From: Candidatus Poribacteria bacterium
GTDB taxonomy: Bacteria > Poribacteria > WGA-4E > UBA9662
Assembly (NCBI GenBank): GCA_002709695.1
Contig: PAQF01000042.1
Coordinates: 1-57,353 of the forward strand
Length of the DNA: 57,353 nt
Reading direction: 5' to 3'
Below are positions 22,907 to 42,376 of the stretch, in pieces; position 1 is the first letter of the stretch, and each line of letters opens with the position of its first letter. The position numbers and the translations under genes were made by a program. Under the pieces are notes generated by a model, which saw nothing but the letters and a program-made list of their open reading frames with translations, ran no database searches and was not told the DNA's origin.

Positions 22907-24607
22907 TTATTTCAAAATTACCATTTTCTTGGTCTGCGTGTAATTGTTAGTCTGAATGGTGTAGAAATAAGTACCACTGGCTACCCTTTCTCCATTGTTA
23001 TTTTTCCCATCCCAATGGATCGCTTTATCATGGCTAGTATACTTTCCTGATAGAGTATATCCTAGATCAAGCCTTCTTACTTCATTTCCTCTTAGGTCAG
23101 AAATGGTGAACGAGACATTAGTGTGTTCATGAAGTTCAAATGGGATCCATGTTTCAGGGTTGAATGGATTCGGATAGTTAGACAATAGTTGAGTTTTTTT
23201 AGGTAATTGTTTTGTAAGAAAAACTCTTAAGAGGTCTAATACAATTTCTTCAGGAAATGATAGATTGTACTTAGACTCTAGTTGATTAACTAGAGATTCG
23301 ATGTTACGTTTCTGGTTTGTCGTAAATTCGATTCCTTTAGTCATGTTTGGAGCAGCAGCAATTTTACCTCGTCCGAAGTTTCCTGCTACTATGACTAAAT
23401 CGAAGATGTTAACATTCTTGTCTCCATTGACGTCACCTAGTAGGTTATTGCCTGTTTTGCCAAATTGGCCTGCGGCCATCACTAAGTCGAAGATGTCGAC
23501 TGTTTTATCTCCATTGATATCACCTATTAATCTGGGTTGTTCTACTATGTTATCGTAGATAAGAGATTTGCCTGCTTTGTCAATGAATCCCCACTTGCCA
23601 TTTAATTCAACTGCTGCTAACCCTTGGGTGAAATTTCTTGCAGAGTCAAATTGGGGCTGGATTACTATCTCTCCTGTTTTGTTAACAAAACCCCATTTGT
23701 TGTCTAACTCGATTGGCGTTAACCTTCCGGCGGAATCCGCCACTTGAGGTTGAATGATGATCTGTCCTGTTTCGTCAATAAATCCCAATTTACGACCTAA
23801 TTCGACTAATGCCAGAATATCAATGAAGCTATTTACCCACTCAAATTGGGGGTCAATAGAGACTTGGTTGGTGTTGTCAATGATACCTGATTCACGGCCT
23901 AAGTCGATGAGCGTTGATTCATCAACGAAATCCCTTACAACGTTGCCTAATTCCGGGTTCAGTTCAATTGGTGTTGACCCTCCGGCGGAATCCGCCACTT
24001 GAGGTTGAATGATGATCTGTCCTGTTTCGTCAATAAATCCCAATTTACGACCTAATTCGACTAATGCCAGAATATCAATGAAGCCATTTATCCACTCAAA
24101 TTGGGGGTCAATAGAGACTTGGTTAGTGTTGTCAATGATACCTGATTCACGGCCTAAGTCGATGAGCGTTGATTCATCAACGAAATCCCTTACAACATTG
24201 CCTGATTCCGGGTTTAGTTCAACTTGGTTTAATGTGTTAATAGTATTCTGTATCCACTCAAGTTGTGTTTGAATAACTATTTTACCTGTTTTGTCAGTAA
24301 ACTCTGCTTTACTATCTAATTTGATCAATTTCAATTCTGCAATAAAATCACCCACTTGGTCAAACTGAGGTTGAATGATGATCTGTCCTGTTTTGTCAAT
24401 GGCGCCCCATTTCCCGTTTGATTTAACTAGTGCAAACCCTTCATGAAAAACCGATTCATTATGGACACCCCATATTATCATGGGATTTACCCCCGAGGGG
24501 AAAACCAATATGCTTTGGAATGGTACTGAGATTTTCTCCTGTGCAAAGGAGGCAATACAAACGGCGTAACAAAAGAACAAAGCTGAGAAAAGTCTACAGG
24601 ATTTCAT
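22907..24607 (-). CDS. Secreted WG-repeat protein with dockerin domain and C-terminal surface tag
   Basis: 566 residues. It has a signal peptide (cleavage about ASFA/QEK), about eight WG-type repeats (KWGAIDKTGQIIIQPQFDQ and variants), then a dockerin type I pair (GDINGDKTVDIFDLV, GDVNGDKNVNIFDLV), each with the calcium loop D-x-N-G-D. The C-terminal tag runs from YPNPFNPETWIPFEL through WDGKNNNGERVASGTYFY and ends in K, resembling FlgD/T9SS-type sorting domains. Two WG repeats are nearly identical at DNA level (255-bp duplication). A promoter is seen upstream at 24655-24683. It converges with the C45 gene. Confidence 0.9.
   Translation of the reverse strand: MKSCRLFSALFFCYAVCIASFAQEKISVPFQSILVFPSGVNPMIIWGVHNESVFHEGFALVKSNGKWGAIDKTGQIIIQPQFDQVGDFIAELKLIKLDSKAEFTDKTGKIVIQTQLEWIQNTINTLNQVELNPESGNVVRDFVDESTLIDLGRESGIIDNTNQVSIDPQFEWINGFIDILALVELGRKLGFIDETGQIIIQPQVADSAGGSTPIELNPELGNVVRDFVDESTLIDLGRESGIIDNTNQVSIDPQFEWVNSFIDILALVELGRKLGFIDETGQIIIQPQVADSAGRLTPIELDNKWGFVNKTGEIVIQPQFDSARNFTQGLAAVELNGKWGFIDKAGKSLIYDNIVEQPRLIGDINGDKTVDIFDLVMAAGQFGKTGNNLLGDVNGDKNVNIFDLVIVAGNFGRGKIAAAPNMTKGIEFTTNQKRNIESLVNQLESKYNLSFPEEIVLDLLRVFLTKQLPKKTQLLSNYPNPFNPETWIPFELHEHTNVSFTISDLRGNEVRRLDLGYTLSGKYTSHDKAIHWDGKNNNGERVASGTYFYTIQTNNYTQTKKMVILK
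23711..24220. repeat. 255-bp tandem duplication inside the WG-repeat gene
   Basis: Two copies, about 23711-23965 and 23966-24220, differ at only a few bases, for example at the GGTGTTGACC and GGCGTTAACC boundaries. Each unit encodes 85 residues, so the duplication keeps frame and adds one set of WG repeats. The near identity indicates a recent event, or ongoing length variation by slippage or recombination. Confidence 0.85.
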
Positions 24608-25010
24608 ATGAACTCACAGGTGGGTTTATTCAAATATTTCTATATATACATGAACTTATACATGAGATTTTTTTTGTAGTCAAGCGACTAATACTTCTAC
24701 CAATGTCGGAAATTGCGAGTATGAATCTTTTTCAATGCTGAATTTACCTGATGTATTTTGATGGTTTAAGCCGAAAAAGAGTAGAATCTTTGAAGGTCGA
24801 AGAATTGTGTTTTTAGTTAAAGTTGGGCTGAACTTGGGCTGGTAGAGAAATTCTATGTTCTCGATTGTCTCCCTTTGAACCGATCAACCTACATTTTCGT
24901 CTTATAATATAATTATAGTTTTGTACTTGATATCATTTGTCGTTTTAACATTGAGGACAGATCTGGATTAGAGTTGATATGATTGTTTTCTGGCTGTAAG
25001 GGGATTTTAC
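24608..25010. other. Divergent intergenic region between two tagged secreted proteins
   Basis: About 400 bases, AT-rich, separating the WG/dockerin gene and the subtilase gene. It holds the minus-strand promoter at 24655-24683. On the plus strand TATAAT-like boxes occur at 24903 and 24908, but no -35 box at a good distance was seen. No gene was found. Confidence 0.5.
24655..24683 (-). promoter_or_regulatory. Sigma-70-like promoter of the WG/dockerin gene
   Basis: On the minus strand, TTGACT (24678-24683) is followed after exactly 17 nt by TATAAG (24655-24660). It ends 48 nt upstream of the start codon at 24607. This matches the consensus well in both boxes and spacing. Confidence 0.6.
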
Positions 25011-28000
25011 ATGAAAAAACACAATTTATTTTTCTCAATCTTTTGCTTGCAATTCATTCTTCTCCATTTTGCAAAATCTGATTCATTTGTAGGAGAGATG
25101 TTTATAACAAAAAATCTTGTATTAAAAAGAAAAATATTTAAACTCATTGATCAGTTCATTGAGGCTACTTTAGAGACTTCGATAGCAACTGAAGAAGAAC
25201 TTAGCAAAATGCATCCATCTATCCCGGTAAAAATCCGGTCAGAAATTCACCTTAGGATACGGGAACGACATGGTGATATAGAGGGATTGGCTGAGACCAA
25301 TAGTCCTAGTTCGTTAGAGGATGAAAATGTTGTGTTAAATCGAATCGTTCAGAAAAGTATTTATGAATTTGTACGTCAAAGTTCGTTGTCCTTAATTCTA
25401 GAATCACATATCCCCTTTAATACAACTCAGTTGGATCTCCTAAGAGATCTGGGTGTGAGGTTGCAATATCGATATGATAGTATCCATAGCCTTTCAGTAT
25501 TTGTGCCTTTAAATAAGATTTTTGCTTTGGTTAAATACGATTTCATCAAGAGAATTTGGTCTGATGGCAAGGTGCGTTTGACAGTTGATGACAAGAATCT
25601 TGAACAGTTAGGTGTGAGTGATATTCAAGGGTTTGGTGTTCGTGGGAAGGATGTTCGGGTTGCAATTATTGATACTGGTATTGATCAGTCACATTCAGAG
25701 TTTGAGGAGAGAGTAATTGCTAAACGAGGAAATCGTAATCCTTCACACTGGCATGGTACGCACGTTGCAGGGATTGTTGGGGCCGCTGATGATGGTGAAG
25801 GCATGACCGGGATTGCTCCTAAAGTATCTTTGATCGACGCACCTATAGTTCCTCATAGGTTTTGGTATCAGGGTGAATATGCTGACACAGTTGATGCCAT
25901 TAATTGGGCTGCAGATCTTGTTAGTGCGGATATTATTAACATTAGCATGGGGTGGGGACCGTGGGAGTATGATAGGGCCGGTGTAGACCCGATGAGTAAA
26001 ACAATTAATCGTGTTGTTTCAGAGGGAAAGTGTGTTGTGGTTGTGGCTGCAGGGAATAGTTCCGAACAGTATGACCAAGGAATTGCGACTGAACATCCTG
26101 AGCCAGGAAAAATGTGGATCTATCAACATGACATTGATGTTACTGGAACTATGCAAGTAACTCTTTGGTGGAAGGGAGAAAATAGTGATCTAGATCTGGT
26201 TTTGGAAAATAACAATGGTGAAGAAATTATCTCTAGCCGTACTCATCGGGTGTTTGGATGGTTTGGAAGACCTGGAGGACAGACAAACTCTGGTGCTTAT
26301 TATGAACAAATTATGTATAGCCCACAAGTGTCGCGTAAATTACGAGTTAGAGTCGAAGCATATCTTGTTTCAGAAGACCAAACTTACGAAATTTGGTTAG
26401 ATGAAAATTCTAGATTTTTGAATGTTGATGATGAACAAAGATTCAAGACAGTAACTGTACCTGGATATGCTGAATATGCAATTACTGTTGGGGCAATAAA
26501 CAGTGATGATGGAAGCATTACCTCGTTCAGTAGTCGTGGTCCAAGTGAACATCTGTTTCCATTAATAAAACCTGAAGTCGTATCTCAGGGAGGAATACGT
26601 AACGATTCAGAGTTAGGCATTTATTCTACCATGTGGAACAATAGTTATGGTTATGCTGTTGGTACGAGTATGGCAGCACCACATATATCTGGTGTTGCTG
26701 CCCTTATTTTGGATGCTGTGGGTAAGAATAAACTTGGTCAGTGGAATTTTCATCCCTTTGAGGTTAAGAGTGCGATTATCAGAAGCACAGTGAACTCATC
26801 AATTGATCTTATTGACGAACCTGATAATACTTATGGATCAGGGATTGTAAAGTCGGATAATGTCATATTTGTCGGCGAAATCAATGAGAATGAAATATTA
26901 AGTTACTATATTTACCCAAAAATTGTTCAAACAGATTTTGGTGATTATCGATTGAGTGTTGAAGCCGATTTAAACATAGGGATTCACTGGGATAACACAG
27001 ATTTTGATCTTGATATCTACCTTTACAATAGTGAAGGATATCTTGTCGCTAGTTCTTCAGACCTAGATACGAATTATGAACAAGTTAGTGGCGAAATGTT
27101 TTCGGAAACTGATTCAAACCTAACTCTAAGTATCGTGAATAAAACCTCTCGATTGGTTCCTTTTACTGGCGCTTCGACTTATCCTTTCGAGCAATTAAAT
27201 ACTGTTTTCCCGTCAGCTAGTATGAAGGTAACACCGACAAAAATTGATTTTGGGGTTGTCACAGTTGGAACTATTAAGCGACTATCATTAAAAATTCAGA
27301 ATGATGGTACCCATCGTTTGTTGGTTACTCAGGTGATTTCAGACGATAACCGATTCTTCGTAGAACAGACGAACTTTTTCATTAATCCTAAAGGTAATAA
27401 GGTTTTGGATCTTATATTTAGGCCTATTAACCAAGACCCTCTGGTTGAAAAAATAACCATTCAAAGTAATGTGGGAAATGTTGTTGTGACTGCTATCGGT
27501 GGAATTGAAACTTCTACTCAAGAAAGCAAATTTGCTCTGAACTTGAAGCGGGGAGTAAACTTAATTTCTATTCCTTTGGATTCTGGTTTTCCTGTGTCAG
27601 CTAGCGCTTTTGCCAATCAAGTCGGAGCAACACTGATTGTTCAATATGATATTGAAAAGAGAAATTTTGTTTCCTTCATTCCAAACTTTGATAGGTTCGA
27701 TTTTTCTTTAATTGGTGGTAAAGGATACGTTGTCAATTTGCTTGATGATTACGATATTATTTTTACGGGGCGTGCATGGAACAATGTGGATGAGTCACCT
27801 GCCCTAGTTAACAATGTATCCCAAATATGGGCTTTCGCTTTGGCGGGCAGAGTTAAGTTTACTGATTTATCTTCGGTGAAAGCAACTAATCGTAGAAATG
27901 GATTTGAATGGGAAGGGTTGGTAGAAGAGGGCAGGTTTAAAGCTATTGTAATCGATCCAAATCAGCAATCTATTGTTCAAATAGGGGATAGGATTGACGT

Positions 28001-28409
28001 TAGTGTGTTTGATCAGGATGGAACACGTGTGTCGGAAAAGCTGGTCATGTATGTTAGTCAGCAAGATATTATTAGAGCGTATCGAGTTGTACGTTTGGAA
28101 CAGAGACGTATTCCAGATCAGACAAGATTGATCCCAAATTATCCAAATCCTTCTAACCCTGAAACTTGGATCCCTTTTGAAATTGATCGGGATAGTGAAG
28201 TGTCGATAACCATTTATGATACTTCGGGTACATCGGTTAGAACAATTAGAGTTGGTTATGTAGAAGCTGGGAGGTATAGAAGCCAGTCGAAAGCTGTTTA
28301 TTGGGACGGAAAAACTGATACTGGTGAAAGGGTTGCTAGTGGAGTATATTTCTACACACTGAGGGCAGGTATGTCCAGATACACTCGAAAAATGATTGTT
28401 TTGAAGTAG
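25011..28409 (+). CDS. Secreted subtilisin-like serine protease (S8) with C-terminal surface tag
   Basis: 1132 residues. It has a signal peptide at the N terminus and a propeptide-like region about 130-190. The catalytic triad is Asp in VAIIDTGIDQSHSEF (about 218), His in WHGTHVAGIVG (about 247) and Ser in GTSMAAPHISG (about 550), with the oxyanion Asn in VVAAGNSS. A beta-rich insert lies between the His and Ser blocks. After the protease come PPC-like beta domains, a choice-of-anchor-D-like domain (FGVVTVGTIKRLSL) and the tag YPNPSNPETWIPFEI to WDGKTDTGERVASGVYFY, ending MIVLK. It is probably exported and displayed on the cell surface. Confidence 0.93.
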   Translation: MKKHNLFFSIFCLQFILLHFAKSDSFVGEMFITKNLVLKRKIFKLIDQFIEATLETSIATEEELSKMHPSIPVKIRSEIHLRIRERHGDIEGLAETNSPSSLEDENVVLNRIVQKSIYEFVRQSSLSLILESHIPFNTTQLDLLRDLGVRLQYRYDSIHSLSVFVPLNKIFALVKYDFIKRIWSDGKVRLTVDDKNLEQLGVSDIQGFGVRGKDVRVAIIDTGIDQSHSEFEERVIAKRGNRNPSHWHGTHVAGIVGAADDGEGMTGIAPKVSLIDAPIVPHRFWYQGEYADTVDAINWAADLVSADIINISMGWGPWEYDRAGVDPMSKTINRVVSEGKCVVVVAAGNSSEQYDQGIATEHPEPGKMWIYQHDIDVTGTMQVTLWWKGENSDLDLVLENNNGEEIISSRTHRVFGWFGRPGGQTNSGAYYEQIMYSPQVSRKLRVRVEAYLVSEDQTYEIWLDENSRFLNVDDEQRFKTVTVPGYAEYAITVGAINSDDGSITSFSSRGPSEHLFPLIKPEVVSQGGIRNDSELGIYSTMWNNSYGYAVGTSMAAPHISGVAALILDAVGKNKLGQWNFHPFEVKSAIIRSTVNSSIDLIDEPDNTYGSGIVKSDNVIFVGEINENEILSYYIYPKIVQTDFGDYRLSVEADLNIGIHWDNTDFDLDIYLYNSEGYLVASSSDLDTNYEQVSGEMFSETDSNLTLSIVNKTSRLVPFTGASTYPFEQLNTVFPSASMKVTPTKIDFGVVTVGTIKRLSLKIQNDGTHRLLVTQVISDDNRFFVEQTNFFINPKGNKVLDLIFRPINQDPLVEKITIQSNVGNVVVTAIGGIETSTQESKFALNLKRGVNLISIPLDSGFPVSASAFANQVGATLIVQYDIEKRNFVSFIPNFDRFDFSLIGGKGYVVNLLDDYDIIFTGRAWNNVDESPALVNNVSQIWAFALAGRVKFTDLSSVKATNRRNGFEWEGLVEEGRFKAIVIDPNQQSIVQIGDRIDVSVFDQDGTRVSEKLVMYVSQQDIIRAYRVVRLEQRRIPDQTRLIPNYPNPSNPETWIPFEIDRDSEVSITIYDTSGTSVRTIRVGYVEAGRYRSQSKAVYWDGKTDTGERVASGVYFYTLRAGMSRYTRKMIVLK

Positions 28410-35992: not shown

Positions 35993-37609
35993 ATGAGAGC
36001 TTGGGTTTTGTTAATTCATTTAGGTTTGCTAATTGTTGTGTTTTTGCCGATTTTAGAGGCGGAAATCGGGTATATATTGACAGATCCGTTTACTTTTGAT
36101 ACGCGTCTTACACCAACAATTGAATCCGTGTCACCATCCGAAGGGACATTCTTTGGAGGAAGACAGGTCACTGTCCTTGGCACTAACTTTGTTGTTGGGA
36201 AAACTGCTGTGAAATTGGGGGAGAACTATGGCCTAGATATAGTGGTGAAATCTGATACTGAGATTGTTCTCAAGACGCCAAGTAGTCTTCAAGCATCTGT
36301 TGATGTTACCGTTATTAATCCGGGGGATATGGTTGTAATCCTTGAGGATGGGTTTCAGTATGTTGATCCTACCGTGTCAACCATCCGGTTGACTACCAAC
36401 CCAAAAACTTTGGTTGCTGATGGTACTAATATTGCAACCATCACTATTCAATTATTTGATCAAGATAATCAGTTGGTTACAGATGAGTTAGTTAAGTTGT
36501 CTGTTAGTCTTGGCACAATTGATGATCCAGTGTTCAACCATGACGAAAAAGTGTATCGTGCAAAGTTTACGTCCCCTGTGGTAATTGGTGACGCTATTGT
36601 TTCGGCGGAGGCCGAAAATGGGAAGATTGCTACATCAAAAATCACGCTTGTTGAACGGAAAGTATCGACATCAAAATCAATTGTGTCAGTAGAACCTTCT
36701 GCTAATGTTGCTGCCGATGGTAAATCGACTGCGACCATTAGTGTGACATTGCTTGATGAACGAGGTGTTCCTATTGCAGGCAAAAAAGTCATAATCCGTT
36801 CGGATGGTAAGGTTACAATCACAGTACCACCTCTGACGGATAGTGAAGGAAAGACAATAGCTAAAATCAGTTCTATCCATCCAAAGACCGTTATGTTGAC
36901 GACGTCGGTGAAAGGGAATCCTCTCCTTGATAAGCCTGTTGTACACTTCACTGTAGATGGTGTAAAAAATGCAACAAGTTCTAATCAGATAATAATTTTG
37001 GCTCTTGATGTCAATAAGGATGATGAAATTGATGTACTTGATCTTGTTCAGGTTGCTTCTATGTTTGGTCGGGTAACACAAGGGTTAATGGAGGATGTAA
37101 ATCGCGATGGGATAGTTAACATTTTCGATTTGATGCAGATCGCATTGAATCTGGGGCAAAATGTGTTTGCTTCCCCATCTATTTTCGATCAGCAATTTGA
37201 TGTTATCAAAAGTCTTAATCAAGATGCTATACGTTCTTCTGTTATTGCTCTCAAGGGATTAGCGGATAGCCGAACGATATACGCGATTGAAATTCTTGAG
37301 ACTCTTTTGGTTCCACAACGGACACAGTTACGGCAAAATTATCCTAACCCATTTAATCCTGAAACTTGGATTCCATATGATCTTGGAGGAGATGCTAGCG
37401 TAACTATTGAAGTTTACGATATTACAGGCCACATTGTTAAAAGGTTTGATTTAGGTCATCAGATAGCAGGGCGTTATCGTGATAGAGCAAAGGCTTTATT
37501 TTGGAATGGACGCAGTGAGAATGGAGAGCGAGTGGCGAGTGGTATCTATTATATAAAATTCATTGCAGATGAAGTTATTCAAATATGTCAATTGGCTATT
37601 GTGAAATAA
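35993..37609 (+). CDS. Secreted IPT/Ig-like protein with dockerin and C-terminal surface tag
   Basis: 538 residues. It has a signal peptide (about 1-24), then an IPT/TIG domain (TIESVSPSEGTFFGGRQVTV), two invasin-like Ig repeats (each with a VADGTNIATI or AADGKSTATI start), then a dockerin-like pair (DVNKDDEIDVLDLV, DVNRDGIVNIFDLM) and the tag (YPNPFNPETWIPYDL to GERVASGIYY), ending AIVK. The tag and domain mix indicate export and surface display. Its stop codon overlaps the next start by one base (TAATG), so translation is coupled. It is the first gene of a three-gene surface operon. Confidence 0.9.
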   Translation: MRAWVLLIHLGLLIVVFLPILEAEIGYILTDPFTFDTRLTPTIESVSPSEGTFFGGRQVTVLGTNFVVGKTAVKLGENYGLDIVVKSDTEIVLKTPSSLQASVDVTVINPGDMVVILEDGFQYVDPTVSTIRLTTNPKTLVADGTNIATITIQLFDQDNQLVTDELVKLSVSLGTIDDPVFNHDEKVYRAKFTSPVVIGDAIVSAEAENGKIATSKITLVERKVSTSKSIVSVEPSANVAADGKSTATISVTLLDERGVPIAGKKVIIRSDGKVTITVPPLTDSEGKTIAKISSIHPKTVMLTTSVKGNPLLDKPVVHFTVDGVKNATSSNQIIILALDVNKDDEIDVLDLVQVASMFGRVTQGLMEDVNRDGIVNIFDLMQIALNLGQNVFASPSIFDQQFDVIKSLNQDAIRSSVIALKGLADSRTIYAIEILETLLVPQRTQLRQNYPNPFNPETWIPYDLGGDASVTIEVYDITGHIVKRFDLGHQIAGRYRDRAKALFWNGRSENGERVASGIYYIKFIADEVIQICQLAIVK

Positions 37610-40518
37610 TGAGACCTGTAATTTGCCTTCTTATTTATTTGATTGTTTTGTTGGTAGGTTTTGGTCTGGGGTGTAGTCAGGATAAGCCCGATCTTGGGAT
37701 TGAGGGTTCTATAGTTGGGGAGGATGGTCAGCCGATTTCGTCAGCTATTGTTAGTATAGATGGTGCTGAAAATCAATCCATTATGGCAGATGATATGGGG
37801 CGGTTCTTTATTGGTGATGTTACGAGTGGAGTATACCAGGTTAGTGTCACCAAAGCTGGCTATAATGTTCATCGTAAAAGATTCGAAATTATCGATAAAA
37901 TTTTATCTAATAATGTTGTGCTTGAAAGGGAAGGGTCTCAAACAATATTTGGTAAAGTTGTGGATATGGACAGTTCTGATCCGGTTCCGCACGCTGAGTT
38001 GACAATAGATCAAATAGATGAAGTGGTGAAAAGTGATGACCAAGGTATATTTCGATTTACTAGGAAACTAATACCAGGGATGCATACTGTTAAGGCTGAA
38101 GTCGCAGGGTATCAGGCTTCAAGTATACAGGTTAAGGTTGGTTTGGGAGAACCTGCTAGTGCAGATATCCTGATGATTCGATTGCAACCGATACTAACTA
38201 TTACAGATAGTGTCGTTATATTTGCGAGAGATGAAACCCATAAGATTGTAACTATTGCTAATGAAGGTACAGGTGAATTGTCTTGGACCATCACCTATCC
38301 ACAGTTAGATTGGCTCAAGATTTTTCCAACTCAAGGGGAAATCACGAACAGTAACACCGTTGTCAATATTGTTGTGGACCAAGAAATGGTAAAGTCTCAT
38401 CAACCGTCAAAGACTTTGCATTTCACATCTAATGGAGGAAGCAAAAAATTAGAAATAAGTGTAACTAGCAAAACGGCTTTGTTGAATGTATCGTCTAGGC
38501 AAATTAATTTTGGAGTTGACCGGGATAGTGCGACACTGCGTATAGAAAATATTGGTGGAGGGGTATTGAAATGGAGAGTATCAGCTAAACAAACATGGTT
38601 GTCTGTAAGGCCTTTTGAGGGTGTAACACGTCAAATCCCCTCGGTTGTTAGCATCCGTGTTGACCGAAACAAATTGAATGTACCTGGTCGCTACAAACAT
38701 GAGGTTCAGGTAATGAGTAACGGAGGTATTACTAGAATTGAGCTCATATTGGTTATTCCTACGCAGCCGAAGTTACAGGTTTCTTCGGAAAACATCGATT
38801 TTGGTTCAGAACTGCGAGTGACAGATTTAATCATTAAAAATGAAGGTACAGGTGAATTGTTTTGGGAACTCAAATTCCCAATGACGGATTGGTTGAAGGT
38901 GGATCCACGGCAGGGTATTACGAACGGTAGCAGATCCTCCGTAATTACTCTTAGAGCAGATCGCAATTTGGTGGTACCAGGTGAATACAAAATGCCAGTA
39001 TCGATAGAAACAAATGTTGGGGTAGGAAAAGTGATGGCTAGTATGTTGGTCAAAAAACCTCGCATATTGACGAATCCTGAGAGACTTGATTTTAGCGCGT
39101 ACATTGACACGAAAACGATTATTATTTCTAGGGATGGATATGGGTCGGTTGATTGGGATTTAGTTCCGGAGGCTAAATGGGTTTTTGCAACACCGACAAG
39201 GGGGATTGTTTCAGATGATAGGGTTGAGATTCAAATTACTATTGATCGTAAAGGGATGTTACAGGGAGTAAATGGCACACAGCTCGAAATTCTTGCAGAG
39301 AAAGCTGATGAAACTAGGATTGTGATTCCAGTTACCGTTGATGTGTTGCCCGATATTCGTGTGATCGTGCGAGATATTCGCAGTCGTATTCCGGTTAGAG
39401 GTGCTTTTACATTGAATGGTTTAACTGACCTTAATGGTGTGGTAGAGTTCAAAAATTTCAAACAGCTAATTATAAATGACAAAGTTGAGGTGGGAGGATA
39501 TATTGATCAAGATTATAGGCTTCAAGTCAATATCACAGATAGTGCGTTAGTTGAGAAAACGGTCTGGTTAACTCCATTACCAAAACTCATTCGTACGGTA
39601 GAAAGCGTAGATTTTGATTATCCTGCTGAAATCATCCTTTCTTCTGATGGTATGTTCGCATATATTACTAACATGCAAGGTAACAGCATCACAAAAATGC
39701 GTACTGATACAGATAAAGTTTTGGCTACACTTGATTTGTCTAGTGATGGTTTTGAACCAATTGGGCTTGATCTTAATTCCATTACTGGTGAGATATATGT
39801 GGTTAATAGCATTTTTGAACCGGAGTGGATGGCTCGTGCACGTGCGGATGATATGGTGTCTGATACCGTTTCGATTGTTGATTCTAACTTTCGGCGCTCG
39901 AAGAAGGTGGTCGTTGGTAGACGGCCTGTTGATGTTGCTGTTGATTCTATGCGCAATAATCTGTATGTTGCCAATAGTTTATCCCGAACCATTTCTGTGA
40001 TTGATTTAATAAGTCATGAGATTGTCACTGAAATTGAAGTTGAAGGTATGCCAAATCGGTTGGCACTTGTGGGAACCCATCTGTATTGTGCTTCTGATCG
40101 TAGTGTTGTTGTTATTGATACGAAACTTGGGCGAGTAACCAGCATAATCCGGAATATTGGACATCAGCCAGTAGATCTTATTTCAGATGGTGAACAATAT
40201 CTGTATATCATTAACAACTCAAGTAGCAACGTTAGCATTGTCAATACACTAACGCAAACTGTAGTTAAAACTCTCTCTGTTGGTCTTCGTCCGGTTCGGG
40301 CAACTATAAGCAAATCTGGGTTGCTTTATGTTGTTAATCAAGGGCATAGGGCATTGTCAATAATTTCTCGGGTTGGCCAGGGATGGCAAGTGATTGAGGA
40401 AACTATACCAATTAACTCTGATTCTTATGGTGTTGCTGTTTTGCCTGATGACAGCAAGGTCTACTTGGTTCGGTCGCGCAGCGCAGTTATTGATGTCGTT
40501 GGTTTTAGTGGGCTTTAG
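37609..40518 (+). CDS. Surface lipoprotein with regulatory-like, BACON and beta-propeller domains
   Basis: 969 residues. The start ATG 37609 overlaps the preceding stop. The lipobox VGFGLGC makes it a lipoprotein. Domains in order: two carboxypeptidase-regulatory-like repeats (about 30-190, GSIVGEDGQPISSA), about four BACON-like beta domains (each with EGTGEL or similar and a DWLK stretch), then a YVTN-type beta-propeller (about 650-960, NLYVANSLSRTISVIDL). BACON domains often bind mucin or carbohydrate. No enzyme motif is seen. The next gene starts one base after the stop. Confidence 0.85.
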   Translation: MRPVICLLIYLIVLLVGFGLGCSQDKPDLGIEGSIVGEDGQPISSAIVSIDGAENQSIMADDMGRFFIGDVTSGVYQVSVTKAGYNVHRKRFEIIDKILSNNVVLEREGSQTIFGKVVDMDSSDPVPHAELTIDQIDEVVKSDDQGIFRFTRKLIPGMHTVKAEVAGYQASSIQVKVGLGEPASADILMIRLQPILTITDSVVIFARDETHKIVTIANEGTGELSWTITYPQLDWLKIFPTQGEITNSNTVVNIVVDQEMVKSHQPSKTLHFTSNGGSKKLEISVTSKTALLNVSSRQINFGVDRDSATLRIENIGGGVLKWRVSAKQTWLSVRPFEGVTRQIPSVVSIRVDRNKLNVPGRYKHEVQVMSNGGITRIELILVIPTQPKLQVSSENIDFGSELRVTDLIIKNEGTGELFWELKFPMTDWLKVDPRQGITNGSRSSVITLRADRNLVVPGEYKMPVSIETNVGVGKVMASMLVKKPRILTNPERLDFSAYIDTKTIIISRDGYGSVDWDLVPEAKWVFATPTRGIVSDDRVEIQITIDRKGMLQGVNGTQLEILAEKADETRIVIPVTVDVLPDIRVIVRDIRSRIPVRGAFTLNGLTDLNGVVEFKNFKQLIINDKVEVGGYIDQDYRLQVNITDSALVEKTVWLTPLPKLIRTVESVDFDYPAEIILSSDGMFAYITNMQGNSITKMRTDTDKVLATLDLSSDGFEPIGLDLNSITGEIYVVNSIFEPEWMARARADDMVSDTVSIVDSNFRRSKKVVVGRRPVDVAVDSMRNNLYVANSLSRTISVIDLISHEIVTEIEVEGMPNRLALVGTHLYCASDRSVVVIDTKLGRVTSIIRNIGHQPVDLISDGEQYLYIINNSSSNVSIVNTLTQTVVKTLSVGLRPVRATISKSGLLYVVNQGHRALSIISRVGQGWQVIEETIPINSDSYGVAVLPDDSKVYLVRSRSAVIDVVGFSGL

Positions 40519-40519
40519 T

Positions 40520-42376
40520 ATGTTGGTATCTTTGGAAGATCTGAAAAAATGGTTGAAGTACATTCTGCAGGGATTTTGTGTGATTTTTTCTAGGATTATG
40601 TTTCGGCTTACATTTATTGTAATCTTAGTTTGCGGAATTCTTATGGTTTTCACGCGGCTAAGCTATGCATATGTTGAAACGCTGAAAGGAGATGCTCAAT
40701 CTGTTAGTAATTATATTCAACTTACTTCCTTGGATTATGGTGTAAGTGGGCAACTTGAATTTAGAAGATTGAGATTAGGAGAACGATGGAAAGTGGAAGG
40801 AGAGTTTTGGATTGGTGGTGGCCGAGGCGGCCACGCACTTTATATTTACGTTTGGTCGCGAGGAACACCAACTTCAGAGGATGAGGCCAAGCGCCAATAT
40901 TCGATTAATTACAATGAGTATACGAACACCATTCACTTGAAATATGATGGTGTGGACTTGATACCCCCTGTTCAGGAATTGGGTATTTCTAGCTCGAGCT
41001 GGCGCCACTTTCAAGTTGAGTTTCGGCATGGTTTTTTTTACATCTACTTAGATCGTGAACTCAAAATTTCTTGCCTAGACCCAGAATATACAAGACGAAT
41101 GTCAAATGTTAGATCAGGTATTGGGGCGCGAACAGGAGGGATTCATAATGAACATCGAGTTCGACTGATAACTTGGACAGTTAATGGAAAGGTTGAGGCA
41201 CCATCTCTGGATAATGCTAATCTACCTCCAATTATTACTAATGCTCGGGTTCAACAGGTTCCGAATACGACACTTGTTGAAATTTTGTATGATCTAGAGG
41301 ACTTAGATGGTGATTTGATGACTATTGCTATTGAGTTGTCATCAGATGGTGGTGAGACTTTCAATGTGCCTGTAGAGAATTTTAGTGGGGATGTGGGTTT
41401 AAATATATCAAGTGGGCTTGATAAGCGTATTATTTGGTATGCTGGGATTGATATGCCTCATGTGCTTGGTGTGGATTATATAGCGAGAATTACCGGGAAT
41501 GATGGTTTTGATATTGAAAAGGAAGATGAAATATTGGAGGAGGCGCCTATAGACGAGGAAGAAGATTTGGTTAGACCTCCGGACGAAGGTTTAATCAGAC
41601 CTCCGACGGAAGAAGAATCAACTAGTTACGAGATTCGAGGAGAGCAGGAAATTGTCTGGTTGAAAGACGGGGCTGCAATGCGTTTTATTCGTGGTGGAGA
41701 GTTTGACATGGGATCGAATCAGAGTCCAGAAGAGTTTCCTACTCATCCCGTTTCGGTTGGTTCATTCTACATGGATGTGAATGAGATTACTGTGGGGCAG
41801 TACAAGTTATTTATAGAGGAGACCGATTATAAATCACCGAACTGGAAAGATGTAGAAATATATTCACCTACGGATGCTCATCCCATGATAGAGGTAAATT
41901 GGCATGATGCTATGTCGTATGCTGAATGGGCAGACAAGCGTTTGCCAACAGAAGCCGAGTGGGAGTATGCAGCACGTGGTGGTCTGATCCACAATGTTTA
42001 TGTTTGGGGGAATGAAGAGCCTGATTTGGAAGAAGCAAACTATGGCAATATAGTAAAACAAACAACGGTGGGTGGCACGTACGAACCGAATGGATATGGT
42101 TTACACGATATGGCAGGGAATGTCTGGGAATGGTGTATAGATGAGTTTCAGGGGGATTTTTATTCCAAAAGTGGTCGGGTTAATCCATTGGCTGGTGAAC
42201 TCCTGTTAGAAGAAATATTATCTGATTATAAATTGATTAGCACTGAAAGAGTAAGTCGTGGAGGAAGTTTTGAAACATTCCCTGCCTTTATACGTGTCAG
42301 TTTTCGTGATTCTAGACCCCCAAGCTGGAAATTTAATCGTGTTGGTTTTCGTTGTATTATACCAATTGGCTATTGA
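40520..42376 (+). CDS. Secreted FGE/SUMF1-like protein lacking the catalytic cysteines
   Basis: 618 residues from ATG 40520. There is a signal or membrane segment around 28-50, then a beta-sandwich region (about 70-240, LamG-like in character), an Asp/Glu-rich linker near 380-400, and a formylglycine-generating-enzyme-type domain at the C terminus (GGEFDMGSNQSPEEFPTHPV, RLPTEAEWEYAARGG, DMAGNVWEW, SRGGSF, VGFRCI). In active FGE two cysteines follow RGGSW within a few residues; here the stretch reads RGGSFETFPAFI, so both are missing. It probably serves a structural or binding role, as in many SUMF1-fold proteins. Confidence 0.83.
   Translation: MLVSLEDLKKWLKYILQGFCVIFSRIMFRLTFIVILVCGILMVFTRLSYAYVETLKGDAQSVSNYIQLTSLDYGVSGQLEFRRLRLGERWKVEGEFWIGGGRGGHALYIYVWSRGTPTSEDEAKRQYSINYNEYTNTIHLKYDGVDLIPPVQELGISSSSWRHFQVEFRHGFFYIYLDRELKISCLDPEYTRRMSNVRSGIGARTGGIHNEHRVRLITWTVNGKVEAPSLDNANLPPIITNARVQQVPNTTLVEILYDLEDLDGDLMTIAIELSSDGGETFNVPVENFSGDVGLNISSGLDKRIIWYAGIDMPHVLGVDYIARITGNDGFDIEKEDEILEEAPIDEEEDLVRPPDEGLIRPPTEEESTSYEIRGEQEIVWLKDGAAMRFIRGGEFDMGSNQSPEEFPTHPVSVGSFYMDVNEITVGQYKLFIEETDYKSPNWKDVEIYSPTDAHPMIEVNWHDAMSYAEWADKRLPTEAEWEYAARGGLIHNVYVWGNEEPDLEEANYGNIVKQTTVGGTYEPNGYGLHDMAGNVWEWCIDEFQGDFYSKSGRVNPLAGELLLEEILSDYKLISTERVSRGGSFETFPAFIRVSFRDSRPPSWKFNRVGFRCIIPIGY

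Follow-up and report, generated by a model that had tools for sequence, protein, structure and literature searches.

The 57,353-nucleotide stretch of DNA analysed here (the window; contig PAQF01000042.1 of GenBank assembly GCA_002709695.1, from Candidatus Poribacteria) encodes three otherwise dissimilar proteins that end in a common C-terminal tag resembling the sorting domains of the type IX secretion system (T9SS), and it is this tag, and the secretion route that it might serve, with which the present analysis is concerned. An earlier sequence-only reading had attributed a shared C-terminal tag to the proteins at positions 22907, 25011 and 35993, and all three open reading frames (ORFs) were confirmed as it had described them; a six-frame motif scan of the whole window returned exactly these three tags, with no fourth copy in any frame. 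The distance from the YPNP motif to the last residue is exactly 89 residues in each of the three, which terminate in ILK, VLK and IVK, respectively. The TIGR04183 profile matched the proteins at 22907 and 25011 with 32.6 and 29.8 bits (cut-off 23) and the protein at 35993 with 22.4 bits by hmmscan and 24.3 bits in a six-frame search of the genome, while FlgD_ig (PF13860) exceeded its gathering score in all three. Because of these TIGR04183 scores and the FlgD_ig matches, the similarity among the three tags is, as judged from sequence, not due to chance.

The N-terminal domains had been described as unrelated, and the Pfam assignments bear this out: WG repeats and dockerin in the first protein, an S8 subtilase and ASH domain in the second, and IPT/TIG, Big_1/invasin and dockerin domains in the third (Table 1). 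Dockerin type I repeats stand directly before the tag in two of the three proteins (22907-24607 and 35993-37609).

Table 1. Tag-bearing proteins of the window and further loci elsewhere in the same genome (G000), with the basis of each assignment.
Feature	Position	Strand	Basis
Tag-bearing protein 1 (566 aa), with WG repeats and type I dockerin repeats between a signal-peptide-like start and the sorting tag at the C terminus	22907..24607	-	Pfam WG_beta_rep, Dockerin_1, FlgD_ig and Por_Secre_tail above gathering score
Protein 1 putative sorting tag, 89 aa, ends ...KKMVILK	22910..23176	-	Own-genome profile, E=6e-46; distance to C terminus 0 residues
Protein 1 signal-peptide-like N terminus MKSCRLFSALFFCYAVCIASFA	24542..24607	-	Hydropathy test; cleavage point judged by eye
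Tag-bearing protein 2 (1132 aa), with an S8 subtilase and an ASH domain between a signal-peptide-like start and the sorting tag at the C terminus	25011..28409	+	Pfam Peptidase_S8 3.3e-42, ASH, FlgD_ig, Por_Secre_tail
Protein 2 putative sorting tag, 89 aa, ends ...RKMIVLK	28140..28406	+	Motif scan, alignment, own-genome profile
Protein 2 signal-peptide-like N terminus MKKHNLFFSIFCLQFILLHFAKS	25011..25079	+	Hydropathy test; end judged by eye
Tag-bearing protein 3 (538 aa), with IPT/TIG, two Big_1/invasin domains and dockerin repeats between a signal-peptide-like start and the sorting tag at the C terminus	35993..37609	+	Pfam TIG, Invasin_D3/Big_1, Dockerin_1, FlgD_ig
Protein 3 putative sorting tag, 89 aa, ends ...CQLAIVK	37340..37606	+	Motif scan, alignment, own-genome profile
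Protein 3 signal-peptide-like N terminus MRAWVLLIHLGLLIVVFLPILEA	35993..36061	+	Hydropathy test; end judged by eye
PorU-type C25 proteases, own genome	G000:C25:29838-35834 and C57:95708-101731		PorU model, 404 and 370 bits (cut-off 420)
ExbB/ExbD operon, own copy (other genomes: L244-L248)	L243:3640-9163 (G000:C43:31639-37162)		

The tag is widespread in the genome to which the window belongs (5.2 Mb, 96% complete), where all counts rest on profile searches. TIGR04183 gave 50 matches at a loose threshold, about 40 of them above cut-off, and a profile built from 24 of the genome's own tags gave 43 matches, so that the number of tag proteins in this genome can be put at about 45. The same 24-tag profile detected the tag in every one of the 85 genomes of the phylum, with 19 to at least 59 copies in each, 59 scored candidates being the most that a count could reach. 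Forty-six tag ORFs were fetched from the own genome, and in 43 of them the domain ends no more than 6 residues from the C terminus. Alignment of the 24 tags identified L7, N10, P12, N13, P14, N16, P17, T19, W20, G40, G54, W65, G67, G72, G78 and Y80 as invariant; two features that the sequence-only reading had included in the tag, GERVASG and a lysine at the very end, proved usual and not absolute, as the last residue is K in 21 tags, R in two and Q in one, and GERVASG varies.

Six of the 46 ORFs reach the edge of a contig or of the fetched stretch, leaving 40 with a visible N terminus, and 39 of these begin with a signal-peptide-like segment according to a simple hydropathy heuristic, which was also passed by 4 of 21 cytosolic controls. 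The sole exception, an ORF of 149 aa, is perhaps a fragment, and apart from it no tag protein without a signal-peptide-like start, the pattern that had been named as speaking against an export route, occurred in the own genome. The AlphaFold2 model of the tag (predicted local distance difference test score, pLDDT, 93) is a folded β sandwich whose fold neighbours include the Ig domain of FlgD and the C-terminal domains (CTDs) of PorU, PorZ, RemZ and mirolase.

The window itself had been said to contain no gene for such a secretion route, which is right; homologues of SprA, PorU and PorV sit on other contigs of the same genome. The SprA homologue (G000:C86:77089-83589, 2166 aa) matches TIGR04189 (SprA/Sov) in four stretches with 165.9 bits (E=8e-49; equivalog cut-off 200), and the matching pieces are colinear, falling in this genome at model positions of about 130-257, 373-673 and 1082-1501. 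A TIGR04189 match was present in 85 of 85 phylum genomes at E<=0.01 (84 at E<=1e-7, and G029 at only 1.5e-3), in frames mostly 1900 to 2300 residues long. When a profile of 20 poribacterial SprA homologues was compared by hhalign with a canonical SprA (G006:C30, L082; 506 bits to TIGR04189), the alignment spanned 1057 colinear columns with a probability of 98.85 and E=4e-17. Residues 430-1570 were modelled with AlphaFold2 at low confidence (pLDDT 54, predicted template modelling score, pTM, 0.43); when this model was searched with Foldseek against 350,542 PDB chains, the top four matches were all SprA (8gl8 at 4.5e-21, 8gl6, 6h3i and 6h3j), with the fifth match at only 1e-4. The SprA of a genus-mate (G025) is of equal length and 89% identical to the own copy, and the 69 close relatives found in the GTDB collection are all labelled Poribacteria. 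No conserved operon was found around sprA across the phylum.

Two candidates connected with sprA were set aside. The canonical copy on G006:C30, the only SprA of the phylum above the TIGR04189 cut-off, was not accepted as poribacterial, since its sequence and neighbours are very unlike the poribacterial copies and its bin is 64% complete, making a contaminating contig from another phylum likely; it served solely as the canonical reference in the profile comparison above. A stand-alone FliG-like protein of 234 aa (L051:6166-6870, on G000:C86; FliG_M and FliG_C above gathering score) is encoded divergently adjacent to the own sprA, but was discounted as a clue to the motor, this adjacency being confined to the window's genus.

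The search for PorU-like or sortase-like genes that the sequence-only reading had proposed yielded two PorU-type sortases in the own genome (Table 1), where Peptidase_C25 occurs as two full copies; the domain was found in 18 of 18 genomes tested. Both copies contain the GHG and (S/T)CxNG catalytic motifs and end in a FlgD_ig/T9SS-type C-terminal domain; the best match of the first copy among PDB sequences was the PorU of Porphyromonas gingivalis (6za2, 1.8e-33), with gingipain R2 at 7e-13. Members of the PorV/PorQ family were likewise above cut-off in 18 of 18 genomes, with 23 matches in the own genome and 10 to 26 per genome, and a porV-family gene lies directly downstream of the first porU, in the same orientation, in 12 of 17 genomes. 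In 13 genomes the second porU is a neighbour of lon, with clpX and clpP coming next in most cases (L065, L179-L194), an order that is kept across the phylum.

We therefore consider it very probable that the shared tail is the CTD of a divergent T9SS, a sorting domain of type A. The likeness to the sorting domain of a type-IX-like route, first noted from the tags of the window, is supported by the matches to T9SS type A models (TIGR04183, PF18962), the C-terminal position, the signal-peptide-like starts and the SprA, PorU and PorV homologues of the same genome. On the strength of homology, Poribacteria possess a divergent T9SS outer-membrane core comprising these three components, both in the same genome as the tags and phylum-wide, and this core perhaps works with another motor.

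Several results weigh against this assignment. The SprA homologue and both PorU homologues score below their equivalog cut-offs, and porU is not beside porV in the own genome or in its closest kin, the window's own family. The structural model of the SprA homologue is of low confidence, as given above, and the poribacterial SprA profile retrieved no SprA from the PDB sequences at E<=1; because of these two results, the SprA claim rests on the profile comparison and the fold search together. The remaining points concern the motor and ring, for which the sequence-only reading had proposed a search for GldKLMN alongside PorU. PorU homologues were found by that search, but, with no T9SS-positive control genome included, neither GldL nor GldM was above cut-off in any of 85 genomes, where matches were no better than in non-T9SS genomes and fell in frames of scattered lengths; GldN was found in none of 13 genomes; and full-length GldK was above cut-off in none of six, the matches covering the sulfatase-modifying-factor half only and reaching at most 126 of 350 bits. 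Nor was any Gld-like gene recognised adjoining porU or sprA. Since a positive control genome was lacking, these results represent a failure to detect the Gld proteins and not proof of their absence. At E<=1e-20 the GldK profile matched 29 places in the own genome, none of which reached cut-off, and an FGE-sulfatase (sulfatase-modifying-factor) protein of the window (40394-42376), which has GldK among its best NCBIfam matches at 109.6 of 350 bits, was rejected as GldK because many proteins of this domain in each genome score alike.

It could be that the system is a complete canonical T9SS, whose GldKLMN motor and ring have diverged beyond the reach of the curated profiles, but we regard this as somewhat unlikely. 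SprA itself reaches only 166 of 200 bits, so that other parts may have drifted equally, GldL and GldM are short or made of generic folds, and the missing control genome has just been mentioned. However, divergence of this kind has to be set against GldL and GldM matches at the level of non-T9SS genomes throughout the 85 genomes, the search for GldN that found none in 13, the partial GldK matches and the genes that flank porU and sprA, none of which was recognised as Gld-like.

As to what else might energise a divergent T9SS core, an operon encoding an outer-membrane-like lipoprotein of about 1100 aa, an ExbB with an N-terminal periplasmic CarboxypepD_reg domain and two ExbD proteins was present in six of six genomes examined (Table 1). 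The lipoprotein belongs to no known family and is 68-71% identical among the six genomes, and in each of three single-contig genomes no MotA/ExbB/TolQ-family gene other than this ExbB was detected. The proposal that the poribacterial translocon runs without GldLM and is powered by this operon as a different proton motor is nevertheless improbable in our estimation; nothing found so far links the operon to SprA, PorU or PorV, by position or otherwise, and it may serve another envelope process.

A further explanation, which sees in the tail a generic Ig domain like that of FlgD, stabilising or anchoring envelope proteins and not acting as a secretion signal, appears very unlikely. It draws on the search of PDB sequences with the tag profile, in which the top matches were FlgD (8e-6), and on FlgD_ig being the best Pfam model for the tag in two of the three window proteins. 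The FlgD match is, however, limited to the Ig core (positions 28-88), whereas the CTD of PorU was matched over positions 11-98; nearly all of the 46 ORFs, which encode signal-peptide proteins whose bodies are unrelated, moreover have the domain at the C terminus, and a cognate translocon, sortase and carrier appear to be encoded in the genome. The tag shares an Ig-like fold with the FlgD hook-cap protein, but the tag proteins match FlgD_ig only and lack both the N-terminal part of FlgD and its flagellar context. An anchoring signal of some other kind (LPXTG sortase, exosortase/PEP-CTERM or similar), in which one C-terminal signal is likewise carried by many unrelated bodies, can practically be dismissed, as the tag is modelled as a folded β sandwich and none of the 24 aligned tags has an LPXTG or PEP motif, a terminal hydrophobic helix or a basic tail, the LPXTG sortase and exosortase genes themselves not having been searched for.

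With the tail read as the CTD of a divergent T9SS, its components can be placed in the export cycle described for Flavobacterium johnsoniae, in which the CTD binds in the SprA pore together with loops of PorV, a highly conserved lysine of the CTD touches PorV, and extraction of the PorV-cargo complex needs energy (PMC10994853). The poribacterial parts would fit this cycle, including the C-terminal lysine found in 21 of 24 tags. From the Bacteroidota system we infer that the tagged proteins are secreted by this route, and likewise the joint action of the parts, the order of the steps, the removal of the CTD and the attachment to the surface. Sec would carry the tagged proteins over the inner membrane by means of their signal peptides, and the folded CTD would then dock inside the pore of the SprA homologue. 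A PorV-family carrier may take the cargo out sideways, with the C-terminal lysine contacting the carrier as in Flavobacterium, after which one or both of the PorU-type C25 proteases would cleave off the CTD and leave the protein either released or anchored.

Compared with the T9SS type A branch of P. gingivalis and F. johnsoniae, the poribacterial genomes share a type A CTD with a PNP motif and terminal lysine, unrelated cargo proteins bearing signal peptides, homologues of SprA, PorU and PorV, and the porU-porV order in most genomes. They differ in that the scores of SprA and PorU fall short of the equivalog cut-offs by a wide or a narrow margin, PorU is of about 2000 aa and occurs in two copies (against about 1150 aa), PorV-family matches number 10 to 26 per genome, and GldL, GldM, GldN and full-length GldK went undetected in searches run with no T9SS-positive control.

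The TIGR04183 proteins of Poribacteria have been reported previously by Kamke et al. (2014), who found the tag on many repeat proteins in this phylum but found no structural genes of the Por system and left the pathway open (PMC3909097), whereas the present analysis identifies translocon, sortase and carrier homologues. The SprA, PorU and PorV genes would thus answer much of the question left by that study, although an earlier report may exist beyond the open-access papers or in database annotation. T9SS was detected only in Bacteroidetes by Abby et al. (2016; PMC4793230), and a 2024 review placed it in the Fibrobacteres-Chlorobi-Bacteroidetes (FCB) group, or superphylum (PMC11205867). Poribacteria, which throughout the phylum have a putative T9SS outer-membrane core and dozens of tagged cargo proteins, lie outside this described Bacteroidota/FCB range. 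As Poribacteria are dominant symbionts of marine sponges, the tagged proteases and the WG, Ig-like and dockerin proteins are candidates for being shown or sent to the host. If the motor is truly absent, the translocon, carrier and CTD would be able to exist apart from a rotary motor, a point relevant to the question of which step requires energy.

SprA-like loci were also found in metagenome-assembled genomes labelled Elusimicrobia, Clostridia, Aerophobetes and 'bacterium' (L155-L161), the protein being 23-30% identical to poribacterial SprA. In these seven distant SprA-bearing genomes, which are small and possibly incomplete, neither C25/PorU nor GldM was found in searches run with no positive control. 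At two of the loci (L155 and L158) the SprA-like gene lies near PorV-family genes and a tag-bearing protease, and two further genes close to it resemble, by eye, the lptF/lptG permeases.

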